Shown: positions 1,651 through 14,367, counted from the stretch's first letter. The stretch: DNA of 33,737 nucleotides from Desulfobacteria bacterium (GCA_030145395.1 JAQYVR010000158.1:1-33737), one strand, 5' to 3'. Program-made: numbers and translations. The notes: generated by a model not told the origin, from the letters alone.

Positions 1651-1672
1651 TGCAGGGGATTTGAGATGTGAC

Positions 1673-1794
1673 CGGCGAGCTCCCCGCGCACGAAGTGCTG
1701 CCGTAAGGCAGAACGCCCGTCCGGAAGGACGAGGGCGGGCTGCGCAGCACTGCCGTGAGGCAGAACCCCTGCCCGGAAGGGCGGGGAGGCTTCA
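1673..1794 (+). repeat. Structured repeat element, copy A (short form): GNRA hairpin plus GC hairpin module, twice
   Basis: CGGCGAGCTCCCCGCGCACGAAGTGCTGCCGTAAGGCAGAAC...CTGCCGTGAGGCAGAACCCCTGCCCGGAAGGGCGGGGAGGCTTCA, preceded by GTGAC; homologous to copies B and C. Confidence 0.85.
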
Positions 1795-1884
1795 CATGGG
1801 ATACGAGGGTTTCGATTGCGTATTTCCACATTGTCGAATCTCAAAGTTCCCTTTTGAACTGTTTATCCCGGGAAATTAAGCCGT

Positions 1885-2853
1885 ATGACAGAAAAGCCTA
1901 AAATCGCCCTGTATTGGTGTTCGAGCTGTGGAGGATGTGAGGAATCGGTCGTTGATCTGGCCGAAGATATCCTCACAGTTTCCGAGATGGCGGATATTGT
2001 GTTTTGGCCGGTTGCCTTGGATTTCAAATACAAGGACGTCGAAGCCCTAAATGATGGAGAGATTGCCGCGACCCTCATCAACGGGGCCGTCAGAATGGAT
2101 GAGCAAGAAGAGATGGCCAAGCTGTTGAGAAGGAAATCCCAATTGGTGATGGCCCACGGAGCTTGCGCCCATCTTGGTGGTGTCCCTGGTCTGGCAAATT
2201 TTTTCGAACGCCAGGATGTGTTGGATCGCTCATACAAGGAAGTTCCAACCGTAAAGAATCCTGAGGGGACTTTGCCCGAAGTTCAAAGCGTGGCGCACGG
2301 GAGAGAATTAGAGCTTTCGGGTTTTCATGATCGTGTCAGAGCCCTGGATCAAGTGGTGGATGTGGACTATTATATTCCGGGGTGCCCGCCAACACCCGAG
2401 CTGATCAGAGATGCGATCATCATGGCCCTGGAGGGGAGGCTTCCTCCCAAGGGAAGCGTGTTGGCGGAAAAGAAGGCACTCTGCGATACATGCCCCCGAA
2501 GAGATAGCAGACCCGAAAGATTACGAATAAAAGAGTTTAAAAGACTTCATCAAACCGAATGGGACCCTGAGAAGTGTTTCCTGAACCAGGCACTCATCTG
2601 TCTTGGTCCGGCTACGAGGGGCGGTTGTATGGCAAGGTGCATCCATGCAAACATGCCCTGTCGAGGCTGCTTTGGTCCGACTGATGATGTCAGAGATCAA
2701 GGGGCAAAATCTTTGTCTTTTCTGGCGTCTATGATTGACTCAAAGGACGAGAAAGAATTAGAAAGAATAGCAGATTCAATACCTGATCCTGCCGGGCTAT
2801 TCTACAGGTACAGCTTGGCTTCATCATTATTAAAGGGAAAGATCCCTGGATAG
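1885..2853 (+). CDS. mvhG: F420-non-reducing-type [NiFe] hydrogenase small subunit (MvhG-like)
   Basis: ALYWCSSCGGCEESVVDLAEDIL N-terminal cluster motif; YYIPGCPPTPELIRDA; C-terminal Cys residues CMARCIHANMPCRGCFGP. Confidence 0.9.
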   Translation: MTEKPKIALYWCSSCGGCEESVVDLAEDILTVSEMADIVFWPVALDFKYKDVEALNDGEIAATLINGAVRMDEQEEMAKLLRRKSQLVMAHGACAHLGGVPGLANFFERQDVLDRSYKEVPTVKNPEGTLPEVQSVAHGRELELSGFHDRVRALDQVVDVDYYIPGCPPTPELIRDAIIMALEGRLPPKGSVLAEKKALCDTCPRRDSRPERLRIKEFKRLHQTEWDPEKCFLNQALICLGPATRGGCMARCIHANMPCRGCFGPTDDVRDQGAKSLSFLASMIDSKDEKELERIADSIPDPAGLFYRYSLASSLLKGKIPG

Positions 2854-2857
2854 TGCC

Positions 2858-4330
2858 ATGAGCAAACGCATCACAATCCACCCGATAACAAGATTGGAAG
2901 GACACGGAAAGATTGACATCTTTCTTGACGAGAAGGGCGATGTGGAGCGTGCCTATTTGCAGGTGCCGGACTTCAAGGGTTTTGAGAAGTTCTGTGAGGG
3001 CAGAGCGGTGGAAGAGATGCCAACTATCACACAAAAGATTTGTGGGGTATGTCCTACGGCCCACCATACTGCGTCGAGTAAGGCACTGGATGATCTTTTC
3101 AAGGTGGAGCCCCCTCCCGCTGCAAAGAAGATTAGGGAACTCATGTATAATGCGTTTATGTTTGAGGACCATCTTTTGCATTTCCTTATTCTGGGCGGAC
3201 CTGATTTGATCGTTGGTCCGGATGCGCCGACTGCTGAGAGAAACATTCTCGGAGTATTAGGTAAACTAGGTATTGAAATTGGGAAGAAAGCGATTGACAT
3301 ACGCAACAGGGTGCGAGGCGTGAATGCCGCGATTAGCGGCAGCTCCCTTTATCCTGTTTGCGGACTTCCCGGCGGGATTTCAAAGGCCCTGACTGAGGAA
3401 GAAAAAGCCGAAATACAGGTTGTTACAAAAGATGCAGTAGAATTTGCCAAGTTCACTTTGAAGATATTTCATAATGATGTGCTCAAGAACAAAGAGTTCA
3501 GCGACCTGCTGACCGGTGATGTGTTCTACCACAGCACTTACTACATGGGCATGGTGGATGATAGAAACAGGGTCAATTTCTATGATGGAAAAATCAGGGT
3601 CGTTGATCCGAACGGCAACGAGTTCACCAAGTTCGAGGCGAAAGACTACTTGAAGCATCTGGAGGAACGCGTTGAATCGTGGAGCTATATGAAACTCCTG
3701 TATTTGAAGGACATCGGCTGGAAGGGATTTGTTGACGGAGAGGGCAGTGGTATTTACAGGGTTGGCCCGCTTGCTCGCCTCAATGCTGCCGAAGGTATGG
3801 CCACACCATTGGCCCAGACCGAGTATGAGAAAATGTTTGACACCCTGGGGGACAAGCCTGTCCACAATACACTGGCCTATCACTGGGCAAGGCTCATTGA
3901 AGTCCTTTATGCTGCAGAGAGAATGGATCAGCTTGCCGGAGATGACGAACTCGCGAATCCTAACGTGAGGAATCTTTCTAATCAAATCCCCAAGGAAGGC
4001 TTTGGGGTATGCGAAGCCCCGCGGGGAACCCTGTTTCATCATTATGAAACCGACGAGGCAGGCATAGTAGAAAAATTGAACCTGTTGGTCGCCACACAGA
4101 ATAGCGCTGCGGCCATTTGTATGTCGATTGAAAAGGCCGCCCGGTGCCTCATAAAGGGTGGTCGCGTTTCTGATGGCATACTCAACATGATAGAAATGGC
4201 ATTCCGGGCCTATGATCCGTGCCTTGCCTGTGCCACCCACTGTGTTACGGGAGAACCGCCGACGGTTGTGAACCTATATGATAAGGAAAAGAAGTTGATA
4301 AGGGTGATTGAACCACGGGATTTCAAATAA
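2858..4330 (+). CDS. mvhA: [NiFe] hydrogenase large subunit (MvhA-like, group 3c type)
   Basis: ITRLEGHGKIDIFLD; L1 motif KICGVCPTAHHTASSKA; L2 motif DPCLACATHC; 4 nt after mvhG. Confidence 0.93.
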   Translation: MSKRITIHPITRLEGHGKIDIFLDEKGDVERAYLQVPDFKGFEKFCEGRAVEEMPTITQKICGVCPTAHHTASSKALDDLFKVEPPPAAKKIRELMYNAFMFEDHLLHFLILGGPDLIVGPDAPTAERNILGVLGKLGIEIGKKAIDIRNRVRGVNAAISGSSLYPVCGLPGGISKALTEEEKAEIQVVTKDAVEFAKFTLKIFHNDVLKNKEFSDLLTGDVFYHSTYYMGMVDDRNRVNFYDGKIRVVDPNGNEFTKFEAKDYLKHLEERVESWSYMKLLYLKDIGWKGFVDGEGSGIYRVGPLARLNAAEGMATPLAQTEYEKMFDTLGDKPVHNTLAYHWARLIEVLYAAERMDQLAGDDELANPNVRNLSNQIPKEGFGVCEAPRGTLFHHYETDEAGIVEKLNLLVATQNSAAAICMSIEKAARCLIKGGRVSDGILNMIEMAFRAYDPCLACATHCVTGEPPTVVNLYDKEKKLIRVIEPRDFK

Positions 4331-4342
4331 GGAGACATAGCA

Positions 4343-4567
4343 ATGGCAACAGAAGTTTTGGATACGCTTGGCCTGAAGTGCCCCCAGCCGGTTCTCAAGA
4401 TAGCTGTTCGGGCTCCCGACATTAAACCTGGCGACATTCTGGAGATTTTGGGAGATTGCCCGACGTTTGAGAAGGATATTCGCATCTGGTGTGAGCGGCT
4501 GGGGAAAGTATTTCTCTCCATAAAGGATGAAGGGGGAGACAAGAAACGGATCCAGATACAATTCTAG
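4343..4567 (+). CDS. TusA/SirA-family sulfur carrier-like protein
   Basis: 74 aa, LDTLGLKCPQPVLKIAVRAPDIKPGDILEILGDCPTFEKDIRIWCERLGK; CPxP motif; 12 nt after mvhA. Confidence 0.9.
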   Translation: MATEVLDTLGLKCPQPVLKIAVRAPDIKPGDILEILGDCPTFEKDIRIWCERLGKVFLSIKDEGGDKKRIQIQF

Positions 4568-4606
4568 GAGACCCCTTATCACACATGGCAAAGAGAAATA
4601 ATTGAC

Positions 4607-4763
4607 CGGCTTGCTCCCCGCGCACGAAGTGCTGCCGTAAGGCAGAACACCCGTCCTTCAGGACGGGGTCAAGGGGAGCTATGTGAAAATGTATATGTTC
4701 CTTACCGGGGCGCGAAGCACTGGCGCAAGCCAGAACGCCGCCCTTCTGGGCGGGGAGGCTTCA
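4607..4763 (+). repeat. Structured repeat element, copy B (long form)
   Basis: TTGAC followed by CGGCTTGCTCCCCGCGCACGAAGTGCTGCCGTAAGGCAGAACACCCGTCCTTCAGGACGGGGTCAAGGGGAGCTATG...CTGGCGCAAGCCAGAACGCCGCCCTTCTGGGCGGGGAGGCTTCA. Confidence 0.88.
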
Positions 4764-4898
4764 ATTTTCGCGCTTCGCTTCACCAAGACCGCTTTACAAA
4801 ATGGTCAAGAATAGACTCCTCCGGAAGCCACAAGAGCCTCTCCACCACCTGGATAGCGGAACGTATTTATGACAGTTACTATAAAAGGAGTTTGAGGA

Positions 4899-7154
4899 GT
4901 GACAGGTAAGATGAAATGCTGGGAGTTCTTTGAGTGTGACGAAACAGAATGCCCAGTTTACATATCAAAGGACCTCAGGTGTTGGCTCGTTTCAGATACC
5001 CATTGTCGGGATGAGATCCAGGGAAAATTCCTGGAAAAGATAGAGATGTGTCTTGCATGTGAGCCTTTTAAAGCAAATGTAGATATCAGCTCATTGGAAG
5101 ATACCTTAACGGTGGTTCATGAACAGTTTGTAGAATTCAGGGGGATGGTTGATGAGCGAGACAGGGATTTGGAAGGGATCAGTATGGAGTTGGCCCTTGG
5201 CTTGTCCGAGGTTTTTGAAGCGTTGCAGAAGATTTCTTCAGGGGATCCATCAGTCAAGATATCTGAGAAGTCGGATCTCGATTTGATCACTAAATTGAAA
5301 CATATGGTCAACCTGACCGGGGAGAATCTGGCGGAAATGGTTGATCTTTCTCACGAGTTTGCCATAGGCCTGGCTGAGCACTTTGACGCATTGCACAGGG
5401 TCTCAAAAGGCGACCTGGCTGCGCGGGTCTCAGGGGGTTCTCAAGTCGAACTACTTGAAAGCCTCAAAAAAGTGACAAACGAGATGATCGATAGCGTGTC
5501 CAGAGAAATGACCGAGCGAAAACGTGCGGACGAGGCGCTGCAAACGGCTCACCACGACCTGGAAATTCGAGTTGAAGAACGAACGGCAGAGCTTACAAGG
5601 GCCAATGTGCTTCTGAAACAGGAGATATCTGAACGCAAGCGGGCCGAAGAAGCACTGCGGGACAGCGAGGAGAGATACCGGACACTTTTTGAAGACTCCA
5701 GGGACGCTATCTACGTTACGGCTCGAGCGGGCGAGTTCCTTGACATTAACCAGTCCGGGCTTGATCTCTTCGGCTACACAAGGAAGGAGATGATAGGGCT
5801 GGACGCCCGAGAGATATATGTAAATTCTGATGATAGACCCCGGTTTCAGAGGGAGATAGAGTCAAAAGGATCTGTCACAGACTATGAGGTGAAATTTCGC
5901 AAGAAAGATAAGACGGAGATGGACTGCCTGCTCACTGCCAGCGTGCGTTGTGCAAAGGATGGCAGCGTTCTGGGGTACCAGGGCGTCATACGAGATATCA
6001 CAGAACGAAAACGCCTTGAAGCCCAACTTCAGCAAGCCCAGAAAATGGAGGCGATTGGTACCCTGGCCGGCGGCATTGCCCATGACTTCAACAACCTCCT
6101 CATGGGCATACAGGGAAATGTGTCTTTACTGCTTACTCACATGGATGCTAAGGACCCAAATTGCGAACGACTGAAGAACACTGAAAAGCAAATTCAAAGC
6201 GGAGCCAAACTCACCTCACACCTCCTTGGATATGCAAGGAAGGGAAGATATGAGGTCAAGCCCCTTGATCTCAACGAACTCGTGGGAGAAACCTCAGAGA
6301 CCTTTGGCCGAACCAAAAGGGAGATAGCTATTCACCAAGAGTTTGCAGATGACCTGTTTGCCGTAGAGGCAGACGCCGGGCAAATAGAGCAGGTACTTTG
6401 GAATCTGTTTGTAAATGCTGCAGATGCTATGCCTGGTGGTGGGGATCTGATTCTGAGGACCAAGAATGTCACTCACAAGGATATCAAGAGCAAGCTGTAT
6501 GATACAGAACCTGGCAACTATGTGTCGCTAACAGTGACCGACACGGGTGCGGGCATGGATAAAAAGATCATGGAGCGTATCTTTGATCCATTCTTTACGA
6601 CCAAGGAGAGGGGAAGAGGTACGGGTCTCGGCCTGGCTTCTACATACGGGATCGTAAAAGGCCACGACGGATATATTCACGTAACCTCCAGGCAAGGGCA
6701 CGGAGCAAGCTTCAGCATCTATCTGCCAGCGTCTGAGAAGACTGTCCGTGAAGCTTTAAGGCATGCCGATAGGCTCATCGCCGGTACTGAAACGGTGCTG
6801 TTCGTGGATGATGAAGATGCCATCAGGGAGGTAGGCGAGGAGTTGTTGCAGGCCATGGGCTACAGTGTGTTGCTGGCGAGGGATGGCAAAGAGGCTGTAG
6901 AACTTTATGAGAAGAATGGGGATAACATAGACATCGTCCTTCTTGACATCGTTATGCCACATATGGGTGGGAGTGAAGTGTATGAGAAGATGAAAGAAAT
7001 CAACCCGAACATCAAAGTTCTTCTTTTGAGCGGATATAGCATTGATGGTGAAGCGACCGATATTCTGGACCGTGGATGTGATGGTTTCATTCAGAAGCCC
7101 TTCACTATGAAAGAACTGTCTGGAAAGATAAGGGAGATTATGGGAACGGAATAG
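4899..7154 (+). CDS. Cytoplasmic hybrid histidine kinase: Cys-rich two-CW-like N-terminus, two HAMP-like repeats, PAS, HisKA, HATPase and receiver domains
   Basis: [17 protein letters not shown]...[25 protein letters not shown] (PAS); [13 protein letters not shown] (H-box); [21 protein letters not shown] and GLGLASTYG (HATPase); VLFVDDED...LLDIVMP...FIQKPF (receiver). GTG start with aaaggag upstream; ATG at 4911 is the alternative. Confidence 0.92.
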
Positions 7155-7300
7155 GTCCAAGTTTTTTAAATATTGTGAGCACGCCATCCTTAAGGATGAC
7201 TTTCCATATATAATGTATCAGCCGTTTATCGGAACAGTCCTAATCCCTGCCTCCGTAGAAACAATTGAACCGCTTCATTTCAAGATAATATTTCCAATCA

Positions 7301-7338
7301 TCAACGAATTCAAAGGAAACGGAACATACTTTTGACAG
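7301..7338 (+). repeat. 38-nt imperfect direct repeat, left copy
   Basis: tcaacgaattcaaaggaaacggaacatacttttgacag; matches 9001-9038 at 31 of 38 positions by direct reading. Confidence 0.75.
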
Positions 7339-7375
7339 ACACTATATAGTTCTGGAACAACTGAAGGGCATTTAT

Positions 7376-8053
7376 ATGCAAGAAGAGTCGACCCATGAAG
7401 AACTGATACAAAGGGTCAAGGAATTAGAGAAGGAAGCTGCTGAGCGAGGGCGGGCGGAGGAGGCGTTGGGGGAAAGCGAAGTCCGCTTAAAGACTGTACT
7501 GGATACAATTCAGGCCGGAATTGTCGTTATTGACCCCAAGAAGCATATCATCGTTGGTGTCAATGCAGCCGCCGGAAAAATGGTCGGTTCTCCAAGGGAG
7601 CAGATTCTCGGCAGCCCTTGCCACGGATACATCTGTCCAGCCGAGGAGGGCGAGTGTCCGATCACCGATCTCGGACAGAACCTGGACAATGCAGAACAGG
7701 TGTTGTTGACTGCTGATGGTCAAAGGGTGCCTATTCTCAAGACAGTTGTATCTGTTATACTAGACGGCCGAAAGCATTTGCTGGAAAGTTTCCTGGACAT
7801 TACTGAGCGCAAGCAAGCAGAGGAGGAGCGAGAGAGACTCATAGGCGAACTTCAGGAAGCGCTATCCGAGGTTAAGACATTGAGCGGCCTACTTCCCATT
7901 TGTGCTTCGTGTAAGAGTATAAGAGATGACCAGGGCTACTGGCAGCAGATTGAAGCATATATCCGGGATCATTCCGAGGCCGAATTTAGCCACAGCGTTT
8001 GTCCTGAATGCGCAAAGAAGCTTTATCCCGAAGTTTTTGACAAGAAGAAATGA
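7376..8053 (+). CDS. PAS-domain protein with Cys-rich PAS insert and C-terminal four-Cys motif; no kinase domain
   Basis: VRLKTVLDTIQAGIVVIDPKKHIIVGVNAAAGKMVGSPREQILGSPCHGYICPAEEGECPITDLGQ; C-terminus LLPICASCKSIRDDQGYWQQIEAYIRDHSEAEFSHSVCPECAKKLYPE. Confidence 0.85.
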   Translation: MQEESTHEELIQRVKELEKEAAERGRAEEALGESEVRLKTVLDTIQAGIVVIDPKKHIIVGVNAAAGKMVGSPREQILGSPCHGYICPAEEGECPITDLGQNLDNAEQVLLTADGQRVPILKTVVSVILDGRKHLLESFLDITERKQAEEERERLIGELQEALSEVKTLSGLLPICASCKSIRDDQGYWQQIEAYIRDHSEAEFSHSVCPECAKKLYPEVFDKKK

Positions 8054-8054
8054 T

Positions 8055-8201
8055 TACAAGCCATCTCAAAAATGCGTCTAAGTCCCCATGGTGGCGTTCC
8101 GGGTCGCCTCAAAATGCTCACATACTACCGTGTATGCTGCGCTTTTTCGCCGCCCCGCGCCTTGCCCTGAACCCTGATCCACTCTTTTGAGACGGCTTGT
8201 A
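8055..8201. mobile_element. MITE-like intergenic element with 17-bp terminal inverted repeats
   Basis: Left end tacaagccatctcaaaa; right end ttttgagacggcttgta (reverse complement tacaagccgtctcaaaa), 16/17 match; 147 bp, no ORF; internal palindrome catac-taccgt-gtatg. Confidence 0.75.
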
Positions 8202-8274
8202 GCAGAAACGAATGGGCATCCTTCAGCATTCACTATGAATAAGGAAGAATGTACTAATGAGACAGGAGGTATAG

Positions 8275-8988
8275 ATGCAGGAATACACCATTCATCCTCT
8301 GGTAGTCGGAGCCAATGAAACAGACCAGGGAGTCATGACCTATCTGCGGGATTATGGAAAAGGAATCTGGATACCCATCTACGTATTTTATGTCAAGGGC
8401 GGTGACAAGAATATCCTTATCGACACCGGGCTAGAACAGTTTGTCGTACCGGATGACTTAGGGAAAACCCATGGTTTTGATATCCTTGAATTTGAGAATG
8501 CGCTAGCGACCCTGGGACTCAGCCCCGACGACATAGATGTGATCATTCATACCCATCTTCACAATGATCACTGTGAAAATGACTATAAGTGCTCCCGTGC
8601 CAAGGTGTATGTTCAGAAGAGAGAGATGGATTTTTTGAGGAATCCCCACCCGATTGACCACAGGTATTATCCGGATGTGCTGGACGATGTTGATGTCGTT
8701 GAGGTGGAGGGGGATACGACGATCCTTGACGGGATTGATGTGATCTTCAGCCCCGGGCATTCGGTTGGGGGCCAGTCCGTTTCCATCAACACCTCACAAG
8801 GAAAGGCGATTATCACAGGGCTTTGCTGCAACGATAAGAACTTCCCAGCCACCGGCCCTGCTATTGCCCCGGGGGTGCACATCAATGTCATGGAGGCTTA
8901 CGATAGCATGCAAAAGATCAAGGAGATGGCGGATATTCTGATCCCCCTCCACGACCTGTCAATCGGGAAGATGAAAACCATTCCGTAA
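8275..8988 (+). CDS. MBL-fold metallohydrolase (AHL-lactonase-like subfamily by motif)
   Basis: HTHLHNDHCEND (HxHxxDH), SPGHSVGGQSV, NILIDTGLE; ggaggt upstream of the ATG. Confidence 0.88.
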   Translation: MQEYTIHPLVVGANETDQGVMTYLRDYGKGIWIPIYVFYVKGGDKNILIDTGLEQFVVPDDLGKTHGFDILEFENALATLGLSPDDIDVIIHTHLHNDHCENDYKCSRAKVYVQKREMDFLRNPHPIDHRYYPDVLDDVDVVEVEGDTTILDGIDVIFSPGHSVGGQSVSINTSQGKAIITGLCCNDKNFPATGPAIAPGVHINVMEAYDSMQKIKEMADILIPLHDLSIGKMKTIP

Positions 8989-9000
8989 GGTTTGCAGTTG

Positions 9001-9038
9001 TCAACGACTTCGGGCCAAACGGAACCTACTTTTGACAG
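9001..9038 (+). repeat. 38-nt imperfect direct repeat, right copy
   Basis: tcaacgacttcgggccaaacggaacctacttttgacag; pairs with 7301-7338. Confidence 0.75.
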
Positions 9039-9082
9039 TCAACATAGAGCCGTCCAAGAATAACTCGTAACTGGGTGTGTCA

Positions 9083-9427
9083 CTAACAGGTCAGATGAAA
9101 CCCAGCCACAACTCTCTTGCCGTCCTGCAAAAGCCTAGTGTACGTATTGCACGCTGATTCGGTTTTTTCTATCAGGACTTTTACTCCACGGTTTTGGAAC
9201 TCAGATATTACAGAGTCTGATACCCGCATGGAACCATAGGCTCCGGTCCCAAAGACGCAGATTTCAGCATCTTCGCTTAGAAGATCCTTGATGTCCTTCA
9301 CTTGCACAAGGTGGCCCTGGGAGCGCCACCACTCAGGTACCACCCTCTTACCGATAAGCTTGACGTCGTTCCGGTAATCCTTTCCATCGATTTGAACGTA
9401 GCCGAATCGGTATGATTGAATATTCAT
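9083..9427 (-). CDS. MTH938/NDUFAF3-like domain protein
   Basis: YRFGYVQIDGKDYRNDVKLIGKRVVPEWWRSQGHLVQVKDIKDLLSEDAEICVFGTGAYGSMRVSD. Confidence 0.82.
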   Translation of the reverse strand: MNIQSYRFGYVQIDGKDYRNDVKLIGKRVVPEWWRSQGHLVQVKDIKDLLSEDAEICVFGTGAYGSMRVSDSVISEFQNRGVKVLIEKTESACNTYTRLLQDGKRVVAGFHLTC

Positions 9428-9494
9428 GGTGGGGAGGGGTTACGCAAAGGTCTCTACGAACGACTATACCGTGCGCTGTTGTCGAGTTGAAGCC

Positions 9495-9917
9495 CTATAG
9501 ACTGTAAATCTTATCGTCGTAAAGGTTGATCCAGTTGTCCCTCAAAGCCCGTATTGCTCCTTTAGTTTTGTCAACCTCTAGGATCAGAGCCGAATCTTGG
9601 GTCTCGAGGGATGGATAAATATGGAGGATATTAATATTGGCCGAGTCCAATACCTTAAGGATTGTGTTCAATCCGCCTGGATGATCCGGGACCTGTGCCG
9701 CAATAACATTCTTGGTCTTGGCTTTGTAGCCGAGGCCGGTCAGGACTGAAATCGCTGCTTCCGGATCGCTGGCAATAAATCGGAGGGTGGCTTTATCCTT
9801 GTCGGTGCCTACCCCAAAGGCGCAGACCCTCACATCGTTGTCATAGAGATGGCCGATGATACGAGAAAGTTCACCCTGCTTGTTCTTGACTCCTAAGACG
9901 ATTTGCTTGACGGTCAT
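9495..9917 (-). CDS. Tandem ACT-domain protein
   Basis: QIVLGVKNKQGELSRIIGHLYDNDVRVCAFGVGTD...AAQVPDHPGGLNTILKVLDSANINILHIYPSLE, two ACT-like repeats. Confidence 0.82.
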   Translation of the reverse strand: MTVKQIVLGVKNKQGELSRIIGHLYDNDVRVCAFGVGTDKDKATLRFIASDPEAAISVLTGLGYKAKTKNVIAAQVPDHPGGLNTILKVLDSANINILHIYPSLETQDSALILEVDKTKGAIRALRDNWINLYDDKIYSL

Positions 9918-9944
9918 GTCTAAGATCCCCGTTACATTCCCGGT

Positions 9945-10526
9945 TTAGGAACCCGATAGCGCATCCACAAATGCAGCACCTTCCTTGATGGCCAGGGTGT
10001 TCATCTTGTGCACCTTTGAGCCCTTTTTTTGAAAGATACTCTTTACACTCTGTATAACTGACTTCAAAGAAACCAAACCGGTTTGTTGCACCAGGGCACC
10101 GATCATAACCATGTTTGCCCCGCGAGTACTGCCCAGTCTTCCGGCGATACTGTTGACCGGTATGGATACGACCTCTATATCTCTGCGCTTAGGCCGGACA
10201 TCTACCAGGTCACTATTCAGGAAAACGGTGCCTCCCGACTTCACCCCTCCCTCAAATCTTATGAGAGAAGGGGTGTTCATCAACACGGCTGAGTCTGGAA
10301 AAGATGCCACCGGCGAGGCGATCGGCTCATCGCTTACAGTGACGGTACAATTGGCGGTTCCACCGCGCACCTCTGCCCCGTAGGATGGAAGATAGGTCAC
10401 ATGCTTGTTCTCGTTCATGCCTGAAGTTGCCAGCACGTAGCCCATCATCAGAACCCCTTGTCCGCCGAAGCCGGAAAATATGGTTTTTGCTTTTGCTATG
10501 GTGGTTTTTTGTGTTTTGGATGTCAT
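9945..10526 (-). CDS. 2-oxoacid:ferredoxin oxidoreductase gamma subunit
   Basis: TIFSGFGGQGVLMMGYVLATSGMNENKHVTYLPSYGAEVRGGTANCTVTVSDEPIASP. Confidence 0.92.
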   Translation of the reverse strand: MTSKTQKTTIAKAKTIFSGFGGQGVLMMGYVLATSGMNENKHVTYLPSYGAEVRGGTANCTVTVSDEPIASPVASFPDSAVLMNTPSLIRFEGGVKSGGTVFLNSDLVDVRPKRRDIEVVSIPVNSIAGRLGSTRGANMVMIGALVQQTGLVSLKSVIQSVKSIFQKKGSKVHKMNTLAIKEGAAFVDALSGS

Positions 10527-10530
10527 TCGG

Positions 10531-11283
10531 TCAATGACCTTTGCCTGTCGTATCCTTGATCACCCCCAGGGGGTAGCTCTTCACGACCTCTTCTTCGATC
10601 CGTTTGCAGGAGTCCACTGATGAGAGCTTCCAATTTGTGGGGCACTGAGACAATATCTCAACCAAAGCAAACCCGAGATCATTCATCTGGACCTGAAACG
10701 CTTTCTTGATGGCCTTTTTGGTTTTGAGGATGCTTTTTGGCGACGTCACCGACGTCCTTGCAACGTAAACGCTTCCCGCTGCTACACCCAGCATTTGACT
10801 CAAGTCGAGGGGATATCCATCCCTGAGGGGTGCTCTCCCCCGCTGTGTTGTTGTAGTGGTTTGTCCAATCAGTGTAGTGGGTGCCATCTGGCCCCCTGTC
10901 ATCCCGTAGACGCCATTGTTTACAAAGATGGCGGTCAGCCGTTCCCCACGGTTGGCTGCATGAATTGTCTCGGCAGTGCCGATGGCAGCGATATCGCCGT
11001 CCCCCTGATACGTAAACACTATCAGGTCCGGTCTGGCTCGCTTTATGCCTGTAGCCACTGCAAGGGCTCGTCCATGGGGCGCTTCTCCCATGTCTACATC
11101 AAAGTAATTATACGCCAGCACAGCGCACCCAGCAGGCGGGACGCCAACGGTCCTCTCCCGAATACCTAGTTCGTCAATCACTTCGGCCGTCAGCCTATGG
11201 ATAATACTGTGGCCGCACCCCGGACAATAGTGAAAAATGGCATCCTTCAGAGCCTCGGGTCTTTTGAATATCTGCTTAGCCAT
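10531..11283 (-). CDS. 2-oxoacid:ferredoxin oxidoreductase beta (TPP-binding) subunit
   Basis: YCPGCGHSIIHRLTAEVIDELG...GDGDIAAIGTAETIHAANRGERLTAIFVNNGVYGMTGGQMAPTTLIGQTTTT. Confidence 0.93.
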   Translation of the reverse strand: MAKQIFKRPEALKDAIFHYCPGCGHSIIHRLTAEVIDELGIRERTVGVPPAGCAVLAYNYFDVDMGEAPHGRALAVATGIKRARPDLIVFTYQGDGDIAAIGTAETIHAANRGERLTAIFVNNGVYGMTGGQMAPTTLIGQTTTTTQRGRAPLRDGYPLDLSQMLGVAAGSVYVARTSVTSPKSILKTKKAIKKAFQVQMNDLGFALVEILSQCPTNWKLSSVDSCKRIEEEVVKSYPLGVIKDTTGKGH

Positions 11284-11295
11284 AGGATTCCTTTG

Positions 11296-12369
11296 TCACT
11301 TATCGAGTTCGTATTTATACATTAGTTTCTTTATTACATTCTCAACCTCATGCGGGGTGGAGATGACACCTCCTGGCCTACCATGAAAGTGTACCGAAGC
11401 CTGTTCGCCCACACTAATCTTCACATCTTCCAACATCTGGCCAAGGTTCATTTCGAATACGAGGATATGCTTGACCGTACGCGTCAAGGCCCGGAGCTCC
11501 TTTTCGGGGAAAGGCCATAATGTTACAGGCCTAAAAAGCCCCACTTCTAGCCCGGCTTCCCTCGCCCGGTTCACAGCACCCTTGGCAATGCGAGCCGCGG
11601 TGCCAAAGGCAACCACAGCAAAGCGAGCACCATCAAGAAGATACGACTCATGCTGGGCTTCACGCTCGGATATGGCCGCATACTTTCTGGCCAGTTTCCA
11701 GTTGAATTGCTCCATCTCGACAGGGTCCAAATGCAATGAAGCAATAAGGCGGGTGTCCCGACCCTTCGTACCGTTTAGCACCCAGTCCTTTTTGGGCAAC
11801 TTGGATGGATCAATCGGATCCGGAAAGCTCACAGGCTCCATCATCTGGCCCATCAAACCATCGCCCAGCAATATGACCGGAGTACGATAGGAGTCAGCCA
11901 AATCAAAGGCTTTCATCGTAAGAGTAACCAGCTCTTGGCCCGAATGCGGGGCAAGCACAATGGTACGATAGCCACCGTGTCCTCCTCCTCTTGTAGCCTG
12001 GAAATAGTCCTGCTGCGAAGGAGCAATGTTCCCCAGTCCTGGGCCTCCACGCATAATGTTTACAATGACGGCGGGGAGTTCCATGCCAGCTATGTAAGAG
12101 ATCCCTTCCAGCTTCAGGCTGATGCCCGGGCTGGAGGACGACGTCATGGCCCGGACTCCGGTCATGCTTGCACCCATGACCATGTTGATTGCGGCCAGCT
12201 CGCTTTCTGCCTGAATGAATGTGGCATCTTCAAGGTCAGCAAAGCGCTCAGACATATACTCGGGGATCTCGTTTTGCGGTGTTATGGGGTAGCCTGCATA
12301 AAAACGACATCCTGCTCGTGTTGCCGCTTCTCCAATCACATGACTCCCGCGCATCAACTGCTTAGCCAT
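11296..12369 (-). CDS. 2-oxoacid:ferredoxin oxidoreductase alpha subunit (VorB/KorA-like)
   Basis: MAKQLMRGSHVIGEAATRAGCRFYAGYPITPQNEIPEYMSERF...QAESELAAINMVMGASMTGVRAMTSSSSPGISLK. Start at MAKQ preferred over the upstream start at 12387. Confidence 0.92.
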   Translation of the reverse strand: MAKQLMRGSHVIGEAATRAGCRFYAGYPITPQNEIPEYMSERFADLEDATFIQAESELAAINMVMGASMTGVRAMTSSSSPGISLKLEGISYIAGMELPAVIVNIMRGGPGLGNIAPSQQDYFQATRGGGHGGYRTIVLAPHSGQELVTLTMKAFDLADSYRTPVILLGDGLMGQMMEPVSFPDPIDPSKLPKKDWVLNGTKGRDTRLIASLHLDPVEMEQFNWKLARKYAAISEREAQHESYLLDGARFAVVAFGTAARIAKGAVNRAREAGLEVGLFRPVTLWPFPEKELRALTRTVKHILVFEMNLGQMLEDVKISVGEQASVHFHGRPGGVISTPHEVENVIKKLMYKYELDK

Positions 12370-12589
12370 GGAACACCTCAATAGCAATATCGGGGCAAGT
12401 TATTGCACACAGAGCACATCCGGTACATTTACGCTTCTTGCTCTTTTCTTTTTCAGTGTACTCGGCCGGATGATAACCCTTGATGTTGAGCTTGTTGCCT
12501 ATCTTGATCTGTCCCTTGGGGCACGCTGCGATACACAGCCCACACCCCTTGCACAGTTCTTTGTCAATCCTTATAAATCCCTTCTTCAA
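12362..12589 (-). CDS. 2 x 4Fe-4S ferredoxin (delta subunit of the 2-oxoacid oxidoreductase)
   Basis: DKELCKGCGLCIAACPKG... and KCTGCALCAITCPDIAIEV; overlaps the alpha-subunit start. Confidence 0.92.
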   Translation of the reverse strand: MKKGFIRIDKELCKGCGLCIAACPKGQIKIGNKLNIKGYHPAEYTEKEKSKKRKCTGCALCAITCPDIAIEVFHG

Positions 12590-12942
12590 ACCTCGATCTC
12601 CTATGCAATACTGTAATTGTCAGAAAATACGGTCATTTGCATGGCTTGTCAAGGGCAATTTCTTCCCTCCCATGCCCCTTCTTCGTTTCAACCATTGATT
12701 TTCCTTAATGATCGCATGATTCTTGAGTGAAGTTCCAAACACTCTTTCTCACAGATCGTGATATCGCAGTTTTCCTTTTCCTTGACACCTTGTGGGAGGG
12801 CCTGATAATTTTGCCAATGGGATCACATTGTTTAATTAGTTTCCATCCATAAATGGCCCTTTTTGCGATGAGCGGCGTTCTTCGCGGGTTTGCGCCTGCG
12901 GCGTACACTTTTGAGGCAAGGGGCAAGTTTGTGTTCCACATT

Positions 12943-12970
12943 GCCTATCACCTATGGCCTATAGCCTATG
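12943..12970. repeat. Short degenerate tandem repeat (GCCTATR-type, about 4 units)
   Basis: gcctatcacctatggcctatagcctatg. Confidence 0.6.
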
Positions 12971-13107
12971 ATCAGGCTTACTCACCACAAAAAATCCTCA
13001 GTTATGAATTGGAAACTTATCCGGTCCCAACACTTGTTACTTTATTTATGGATAGGCACTAATTAGCCCAACTCTCGACTTGTCTTACAGGAGGTAATCC
13101 TCGGCTC

Positions 13108-13716
13108 GTGAAACATTCTTGTTCAGCGATTATCTTATCCGGCGGATTGAACGAACGGATGGCAGGCAAAAACAAGGCCTTTCTTTCCTTAGGCGGTCAG
13201 ACTATCTTAGACCGGCTTTGCAAGTCCTTTCAAGGGCTTTTCGATGAAGTTCTGCTGGTCACCAGGGAACCGCTTCAATATCTATCATTCGACCTGAAGA
13301 TCGTAAGCGATCTCTTTCCAGTTCGCAGCTCTCTTACAGGCATCCACGCGGGGCTGTTTCACGCCTCCGCGCCCCATGCTTTTATTACGGCATGTGACAC
13401 GCCTTTCTTAAGACCGGAATTGATCCAGACGCTTCTGGACGAGCTGGAATCGAGATGGGATGTGATTATGCCTGTGACGGAGCGGGGTAATCAGCCCCTG
13501 TGCGCCATTTACTCAAGACGATGCATAAAACCTATTGAACGTCAGTTACAGAACGGAGAGTCCAAGATTCTCAACTTCTTCCCGAAGGTCAAGGTAAAAG
13601 AGATTCCGGAAGCTGAACTCAGATCAGCCGACCCCGATCTCATCTCCTTCTTCAACATTAATACGCCGGAAGACTTGACCGCGTCCGAGCAAATGTTAGC
13701 GGAGGACTTGAGATGA
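13108..13716 (+). CDS. mobA: Molybdenum cofactor guanylyltransferase MobA
   Basis: AIILSGGLNERMAGKNKAFLSLGGQTILDRL...ITACDTPFLRPELI...FFNINTPEDL; GTG start after aggagg. Confidence 0.9.
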   Translation: MKHSCSAIILSGGLNERMAGKNKAFLSLGGQTILDRLCKSFQGLFDEVLLVTREPLQYLSFDLKIVSDLFPVRSSLTGIHAGLFHASAPHAFITACDTPFLRPELIQTLLDELESRWDVIMPVTERGNQPLCAIYSRRCIKPIERQLQNGESKILNFFPKVKVKEIPEAELRSADPDLISFFNINTPEDLTASEQMLAEDLR

Positions 13717-13721
13717 TTCTG

Positions 13722-13879
13722 TGAAGCCTCCCCGCCCTAAAGGGCGGGGGTTCTGCCTTGCGGCAGCGCTTCGCACCCCGGTAAGGAAGATGAACATTCT
13801 TGTATAGCTCCCCTTGACCCCGCCCTACAGGACGGGCGTTCTGCCTTACGGCAGCACTTCGTGCGCGGGGAGCGAGCCG
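13722..13879 (-). repeat. Structured repeat element, copy C (long form)
   Basis: Reverse complement: TTGAC followed by CGGCTCGCTCCCCGCGCACGAAGTGCTGCCGTAAGGCAGAACGCCCGTCCTGTAGGGCGGGGTCAAGGGGAGCTAT...GCGCTGCCGCAAGGCAGAACCCCCGCCCTTTAGGGCGGGGAGGCTTCA. Confidence 0.88.
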
Positions 13880-14367
13880 GTCAAGAATCTCTTTTCAAGA
13901 AAGTCAGCCAAACCCTCTGTGTCATTCAGCTCGAAGCACGGCGCATCCAGGTCGAGGCTCGTGTCAGACACCAAGGCCACAAGGTTCTTGTCTTCCTTGG
14001 AGAGGGGTTTCTCGTGCACTTGGCTTCGAAATACCTCTATCTTGGGTTTGCCTTCTTTCTTGTATCCTTCTGTTAATATGATATCCACATCCTGGAAGTA
14101 TTTTGAAGCCAGGCTGTCAAGGCATTCCTCAGACTCAATATCCTTAACGAGGGCCAGCTTCTTAGGCGACGAGACGGCCACCGTGCACGCGCCAGCCTCT
14201 TTGTGGCGCCAGCTGTCTTTTCCCTCATGGTCTATATCAAATTCGTGGACATCGTGCTTGATCGTCCCGATGCGATAGCCCCTTTTCTTCAGTTCACGCA
14301 CAAGCTTTTCTAAAAGGGTGGTTTTTCCGGCTCCTGAATTTCCTACAACCGAGACAATCGGTGGCAT
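13846..14367 (-). CDS. mobB: Molybdopterin-guanine dinucleotide biosynthesis protein MobB
   Basis: VSVVGNSGAGKTTLLEKLVRELKKRGYRIGTIKHDVHEFDIDHEGKDSWRHKEAGA; the last 11 residues (TGSLPAHEVLP) and the stop are read from repeat copy C. Confidence 0.9.
   Translation of the reverse strand: MPPIVSVVGNSGAGKTTLLEKLVRELKKRGYRIGTIKHDVHEFDIDHEGKDSWRHKEAGACTVAVSSPKKLALVKDIESEECLDSLASKYFQDVDIILTEGYKKEGKPKIEVFRSQVHEKPLSKEDKNLVALVSDTSLDLDAPCFELNDTEGLADFLEKRFLTGSLPAHEVLP

Follow-up and report, generated by a model that had tools for sequence, protein, structure and literature searches.

The window, a stretch of 33,737 nucleotides from a Desulfobacteria bacterium (GCA_030145395.1, JAQYVR010000158.1:1-33737), carries three copies of a structured repeat, here called A, B, and C (Table 1). 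Copy A has an MvhD-like gene (FlpD domain) on one side and a hydrogenase small-subunit-like gene on the other, and copy B has a tusA-like gene and a gene for a sensor histidine kinase as its neighbors. The end of MobB is replaced by copy C, which provides the mobB stop codon: the mobB frame enters the element (window positions 13846-13880) and stops at the TAA within the CTGCCGTAAGGCAG cassette of the element. An earlier note on this DNA had described the three copies, their CTGCC-GNRA-GGCAG hairpins, and their varied GC-rich hairpins, and all are present as claimed, with starts or ends off by one base; we corrected these limits because empty sites set the ends of the element. Copy A is missing from the orthologous intergenic site in genomes G003, G006, and G014, and the orthologous site of copy B is without such an element in G001, G003, G006, G010, and G014, these intergenic regions being too diverged to reveal the exact junction. 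The right flank of copy B (window positions 4764-4810, ATTTTCGCGCTTCGCTTCACCAAGACCGC...) is a repeat too. It recurs with element copies on contigs C179, C270, C50, and C84, and the left flanks of those copies are unlike the left flank of copy B.

Table 1. Features of the three element copies in the window.
Feature	Position	Strand	Basis
Copy A, left flank (target), GTGA (consensus TTGA)	1668..1671	+	Flank consensus, empty sites
Copy A, rearranged short-type element, 123 bp, with two CTGCC-GNRA-GGCAG cassettes and the end GGGGAGGCTTCA	1672..1794	+	
Copy B, target TTGA	4602..4605	+	
Copy B, complete long element, 158 bp, CCGG...CTTCA	4606..4763	+	
Copy B, left-end outer stem, 5' arm GCTCCCC, pairs with 4673-4679	4613..4619	+	
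Copy B, optional cassette hairpin a, CTGCC-GTAA-GGCAG; many family copies are without the cassette	4632..4645	+	
Copy B, left-end inner hairpin, CCCGTCC-TTCA-GGACGGG	4650..4667	+	
Copy B, GTCAA, perfectly complementary to the target TTGAC; some family copies have GTCGA	4668..4672	+	
Copy B, left-end outer stem, 3' arm GGGGAGC	4673..4679	+	
Copy B, optional cassette hairpin b, swapped stem CTGGC-GCAA-GCCAG	4720..4733	+	
Copy B, right-end hairpin, GCCGCCC-TTCT-GGGCGGG	4737..4754	+	
Copy B, right terminal CTTCA, predicted right cleavage site; CTTC pairs with upstream GAAG	4759..4763	+	
Copy C, complete long element, 159 bp, between convergent mobA and mobB	13722..13880	-	Empty counterpart G001:415822
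Copy C, target TTGA, within the mobB 3' end (mobB ORF 13846-14367, minus strand)	13881..13884	-	

The architecture of the family was drawn from 190 collected elements together with raw copies, the collection having been made with a permissive pattern that admits a few chance entries. Directly after the target TTGA, the common plan begins with CCGGCnYGCTCCCC, continues with a slot that holds either GCAA or a CTGCC-loop-GGCAG cassette, and completes its left part with a GC-rich hairpin, TCRA, and GGGGAGC; an AT-rich core then leads to CCTTACCGGG, a second slot (AAG or a second cassette), a further GC-rich hairpin, and AGGCTTCA, after which comes C(A/T). The CTGCC-GNRA-GGCAG hairpins are optional cassettes outside the conserved core: in the collection, long forms (110-160 bp) carry no, one, or two cassettes in 39, 36, and 13 cases, respectively, and short forms (47 or 71 bp) carry none or one in 42 and 59 cases. 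Copy A is atypical in having two modules without the middle of the long form, an arrangement seen in 1 of the 190 collected elements. The short form is what the long form becomes when the sequence separating its two directly repeated GC-rich hairpins is dropped, and short forms are best read as fusions of left and right ends (LE-RE) through deletion across the repeated hairpin. Ten identical 47-bp copies stand at different sites in G001, so the 47-bp form is either self-mobile or repeatedly formed. There are no terminal inverted repeats, the ends being CCGGCNYGCTCCCC and GGGGAGGCTTCA with the subterminal CTCCCC/GGGGAG as their sole match, and palindromes lie close to both termini. At 47-160 bp the element is too short for a transposase gene, and its core is gene-free.

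We took a census of the family by sequence searches and by inspection of the G001 scaffold sequence. The BLASTn search of the host and its relatives that the earlier note had proposed recovered 42 places matching a copy in the MAG to which the window belongs (G000; 2.87 Mb, 288 contigs), or about 40 copies, and a wider search found matches in 24 of 96 genomes of the genus and order; the relatives with matches are Desulfobacterales MAGs, CP070769 among them. Across 22 genomes of the genus, a degenerate pattern located 38 left ends in G000, 87 in G001, 52 in G007, 37 in G016, 16 in G020, and 11 in G014, with none to three in each of the other species. The reversed control pattern gave a single match over all 22 genomes and 0 in G000; set against the 42 places and 38 left ends there, this puts the copy count far above chance. 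The G001 scaffold contains 437 N gaps of about 100 bases, and element-like sequence lies within 60 bp of 29 of them, compared to 11 for random positions; because the gaps are enriched for adjoining element-like sequence, copies in G001 are probably undercounted. Viral contigs, phages, and plasmids were also searched, and the element was found in none of them.

Empty sites, identified by BLAST as collinear element-free flanks with junctions examined base by base, define how these elements insert. A 47-bp copy in G1 (minus strand, index 714592) compared with empty paralogous sites at G1:179537 and 555302 gives the junction ...GTAGCTTGA^CTTCGACG..., a 71-bp copy in G001 compared with the empty site at 943174 gives ...GGACTTGA^CTTTTTC..., and copy C compared with its empty counterpart in the mobB 3' end gives ...GATTTTTGA^TAGG.... 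At these sites, within G001 and between species, target duplication and base loss are both zero; some further empty-site comparisons pair diverged sequences and are consistent only. The insertion point is TTGA^C(A/T), in a single orientation relative to the target, with T at -1 in 173 of 190 flanks, C at +1 in 150 of 187 (C follows 22% of genomic TTGA sites), and A/T at +2 in 173 of 187 (46% expected after TTGAC). At GCGA^A and TTGA^A sites the target A stays on the right while the left carries the C of the element, which places the cut after TTGA. Most copies (63 of 75) lie outside ORF proxies, intergenic or at gene ends, with no fixed orientation to genes and with the two strands used about equally; the GC skew of G001, against which a lagging-strand bias would be read, is disordered in the gapped scaffold. 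The family is thus real, well-bounded, interspersed mobile DNA that inserts precisely.

A second high-copy family is present in G001 (loci L201-L320), where ACTGCAACAGCGAGCGCATTCCCTG...CAGGGAGCTTCA is preceded by TTGA and followed by A(A/T) in at least 106 places, for example at G1:753471, 793779, and 929638. Its TTGA/TTCA limits parallel those of the first family, and there are chimeras of the two, as at G1:1489565 (minus strand).

The earlier note had argued for selection on RNA or single-stranded DNA structure, and comparison with shuffled sequences bears this out. In 19 diverse, cassette-free long elements, 98.1% of cells are paired, compared to 96.4% in shuffles, and there are 8 double-change cells compared to 1.5, a value that 0 of 500 shuffles reached. 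Pairs with changes on both sides number 3 compared to 1.4 in the same elements, and since 50 of 500 shuffles matched this count the covariation signal is moderate; the outer left stem and CCGG/CCGG are invariant here and hence uninformative on covariation. Larger sets point the same way: 569 of 680 are paired in the right hairpin (shuffles, 533.7, SD 3.9) and 280 of 304 in the left hairpin (shuffles, 269.8, SD 1.7). The GC-rich hairpins keep their pairing with compensatory changes and show stronger covariation than the small CTGCC hairpin, in which most variation breaks pairs (decay). G.T pairs outnumber A.C pairs by 74 to 24, one pair position, largely inherited, contributing 34 of the 74, and this excess points to the plus strand as the folded strand. 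Copies B and C also fold better as DNA than their shuffles (z of -3.4 and -2.9). Two details of the earlier description have a narrower reach: the loop is GNRA in all six window modules, as stated, but 67 distinct modules genome-wide include GCAG (7) and GTCA (6), in a permissive pattern with some noise; and the CTGCC/GGCAG to CTGGC/GCCAG swap of copy B, present as described, is shared by many copies and has the look of a variant inherited within a subfamily.

No named RNA family had been recognized in these repeats, and Rfam likewise returned no match at the gathering cut-off for the window (sub-threshold matches only, with no HEARO up to an E value of 10 for copy B). With covariation above shuffles and no Rfam entry, the outcomes that had been named as a refutation were not found, as far as the shuffle comparison and Rfam reach. 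The suggested HEARO and TnpB/IscB omega-RNA candidates failed: the HEARO model had no match across the genus, the control genomes giving none either, and the OrfB/TnpB domains were absent (PF07282, 0 in the own genome; PF01385, 0 in 22 genomes), which speaks against a TnpB omega-RNA.

We consider it likely that the family consists of small noncoding, nonautonomous elements of the IS200/IS605 type (HUH Y1, single-strand), equivalent to the palindrome-associated transposable elements (PATEs) of Haloquadratum walsbyi. Transposition in trans of this type is suggested by the zero duplication, the short 5' target, the subterminal hairpins, the single folded strand, and the gene-free core, and is in line with IS200/IS605 biology, in which subterminal hairpins and guides operate and the target flanks LE (PMC6006769). 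The plus strand would fold during replication or repair, a Y1 transposase supplied in trans would cut after TTGA on the left and after TTCA on the right, and the resulting single-strand circle would enter another TTGAC site. Plausible guides are GTCRA, which is complementary to TTGAC, and GAAG, which is complementary to CTTC; the GTCAA of copy B is a possible left guide from its complementarity to the target, and the short form would arise by loss of the core between the direct hairpin repeats.

The enzyme itself was sought among Y1_Tnp genes, which occur in 20 of the 22 genomes of the genus and mostly encode RAYT-like proteins. Family ends were found near Y1_Tnp genes at none of the loci examined, nor was an autonomous element with family ends found among them, and when G001 was scanned for a hidden autonomous element, in the form of orphan left and right ends separated by 0.2-3 kb, loose chance pairs were all that came up. 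G007 (96% complete) combines its many left ends with no Y1_Tnp match, and G012 has five Y1 matches and no left end. The textbook IS608/ISDra2 pattern has no target requirement 3' of the cut. These two genomes, the absent autonomous relative, and the target preference 3' of the cut count against the IS200/IS605-type reading. An IS200-like tnpA with flanking hairpins CCCCGTGC-GGRA-GCACGGGG (loci L044:1320-1975, on G000:C32, and L079) is present in G000 and G012; in other species, some right ends of the element have this hairpin as well, which makes the tnpA a possible mobilizer. At L048:278-480, an IS200-like tnpA fragment has a lone right-end hairpin inside its truncated end. RAYT-like Y1 genes at L045:820-1925, L046:1380-2450, and G001:621950-623060 are bounded by GGGGACG...CGTCCCC-type inverted repeats and resemble the TIRYT/subclass 2.1 type of the literature.

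There is a small chance that the mover lies outside the recognized Y1_Tnp family, or is an HUH enzyme that reads its target across the cut (TTGA^C/A, then A/T), and that it serves both this element and the second TTGA/TTCA family, with the GNRA-type cassettes as interchangeable recognition modules. We regard as unlikely a non-HUH recombinase (IS110-type DEDD, IS607-type serine, or another site-specific enzyme) acting through a 2-bp core, AC here and AA in the second family, which would also be duplication-free. The element base after TTGA matches the first right-flank base as core matching predicts (C in 150 of 187 and, in the second family, A in 45 of 46), and IS110 genes occur in 11 of 22 genomes; however, the GCGA^A and TTGA^A sites, with element C on the left and target base on the right, show no strict core match, and the folded-strand asymmetry with paired subterminal hairpins better suits a single-strand mechanism. 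IS110 as the mover is no better than Y1, since G000 has no IS110 match and no examined IS110 locus has family ends.

It is quite unlikely that the family is REP/BIME-like and spread by a resident RAYT (TnpA-REP) protein, mechanistically a subcase of the IS200/IS605-type reading. This would fit the copy number, the intergenic position of the hairpins, and the presence in most genomes of the genus of RAYT-like genes encoding about 320-360 amino acids, but the modules stand in direct rather than inverted order, no RAYT gene is flanked by them, and the element-rich G007 is without a Y1 match. The inspected resident RAYTs moreover look like subclass 2.1 (long, with inverted repeats of the GGGGACG type), a subclass without known REPs (PMC6006769), and one has a weak DnaA-type HTH at its C terminus, as in that subclass. 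REP membership was rejected on two counts: the hairpin foot lacks a GT[AG]G guide, and the examined RAYT genes are not flanked by REPs. Very improbable is the spread, as a gene family, of a conserved structured RNA, whether omega-RNA/HEARO-like or regulatory. Paired, covarying hairpins, GNRA-type loops, and G.T pairs suit RNA too, but there is no gene-orientation rule, many copies do without the core and cassettes, and the empty sites are precise. More generally, the RNA reading is unlikely, and a mobile single-stranded DNA element is preferred over a regulatory RNA because insertion is precise and duplication-free and uses both strands with no fixed gene orientation.

A conspicuous structured repeat is explained here as mobile DNA whose ends and empty sites are defined. 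On the IS200/IS605-type reading, the PATE concept would be carried from haloarchaea to Desulfobacterales, and the family shows how repeated GC-rich hairpins could turn 110-160-bp elements into 47/71-bp ones. This raises the question of the transposase behind 40-90 copies per genome, given that a gene bearing matching ends was not found; the points of interest are this enzyme and the preference for target bases on either side of the cut.

Among known systems, the family shares with ISDra2 and IS608 (IS200/IS605 family) hairpins that are subterminal at both ends and insertion 3' of a short fixed target without duplication, ISDra2 inserting 3' of TTGAT (PMC2806898); unlike them, it has no tnpA or tnpB, its cut falls within TTGA^C rather than after the pentanucleotide, and its preference extends 3' of the cut. 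With REP/BIME sequences and their RAYTs (PMC2817692, PMC6006769, PMC3733652) it has in common high-copy intergenic hairpins attributed to Y1 proteins, but it has no GTAG/CGTC foot and no flanked RAYT gene, and it has two ends in direct order and defined termini. PATEs are defined by the absence of terminal inverted repeats, near-terminal palindromes, lack of target duplication, and core deletion down to a 52-bp form, and their ends are reportedly related to those of IS605-type transposons in the same genome (PMC3119063). The present family differs in its Desulfobacterales host, its optional GNRA-type cassettes, its TTGA^C target, and in that no IS605-type relative sharing its ends was found. 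Like PATEs, it is without terminal inverted repeats, target duplication, or a gene, has near-terminal palindromes and a high copy number, and includes a very short form (47 bp here, 52 bp in PATEs) apparently made by core deletion between repeated palindromes; judged on these shared sequence features, the PATEs of Haloquadratum appear to be its closest match.
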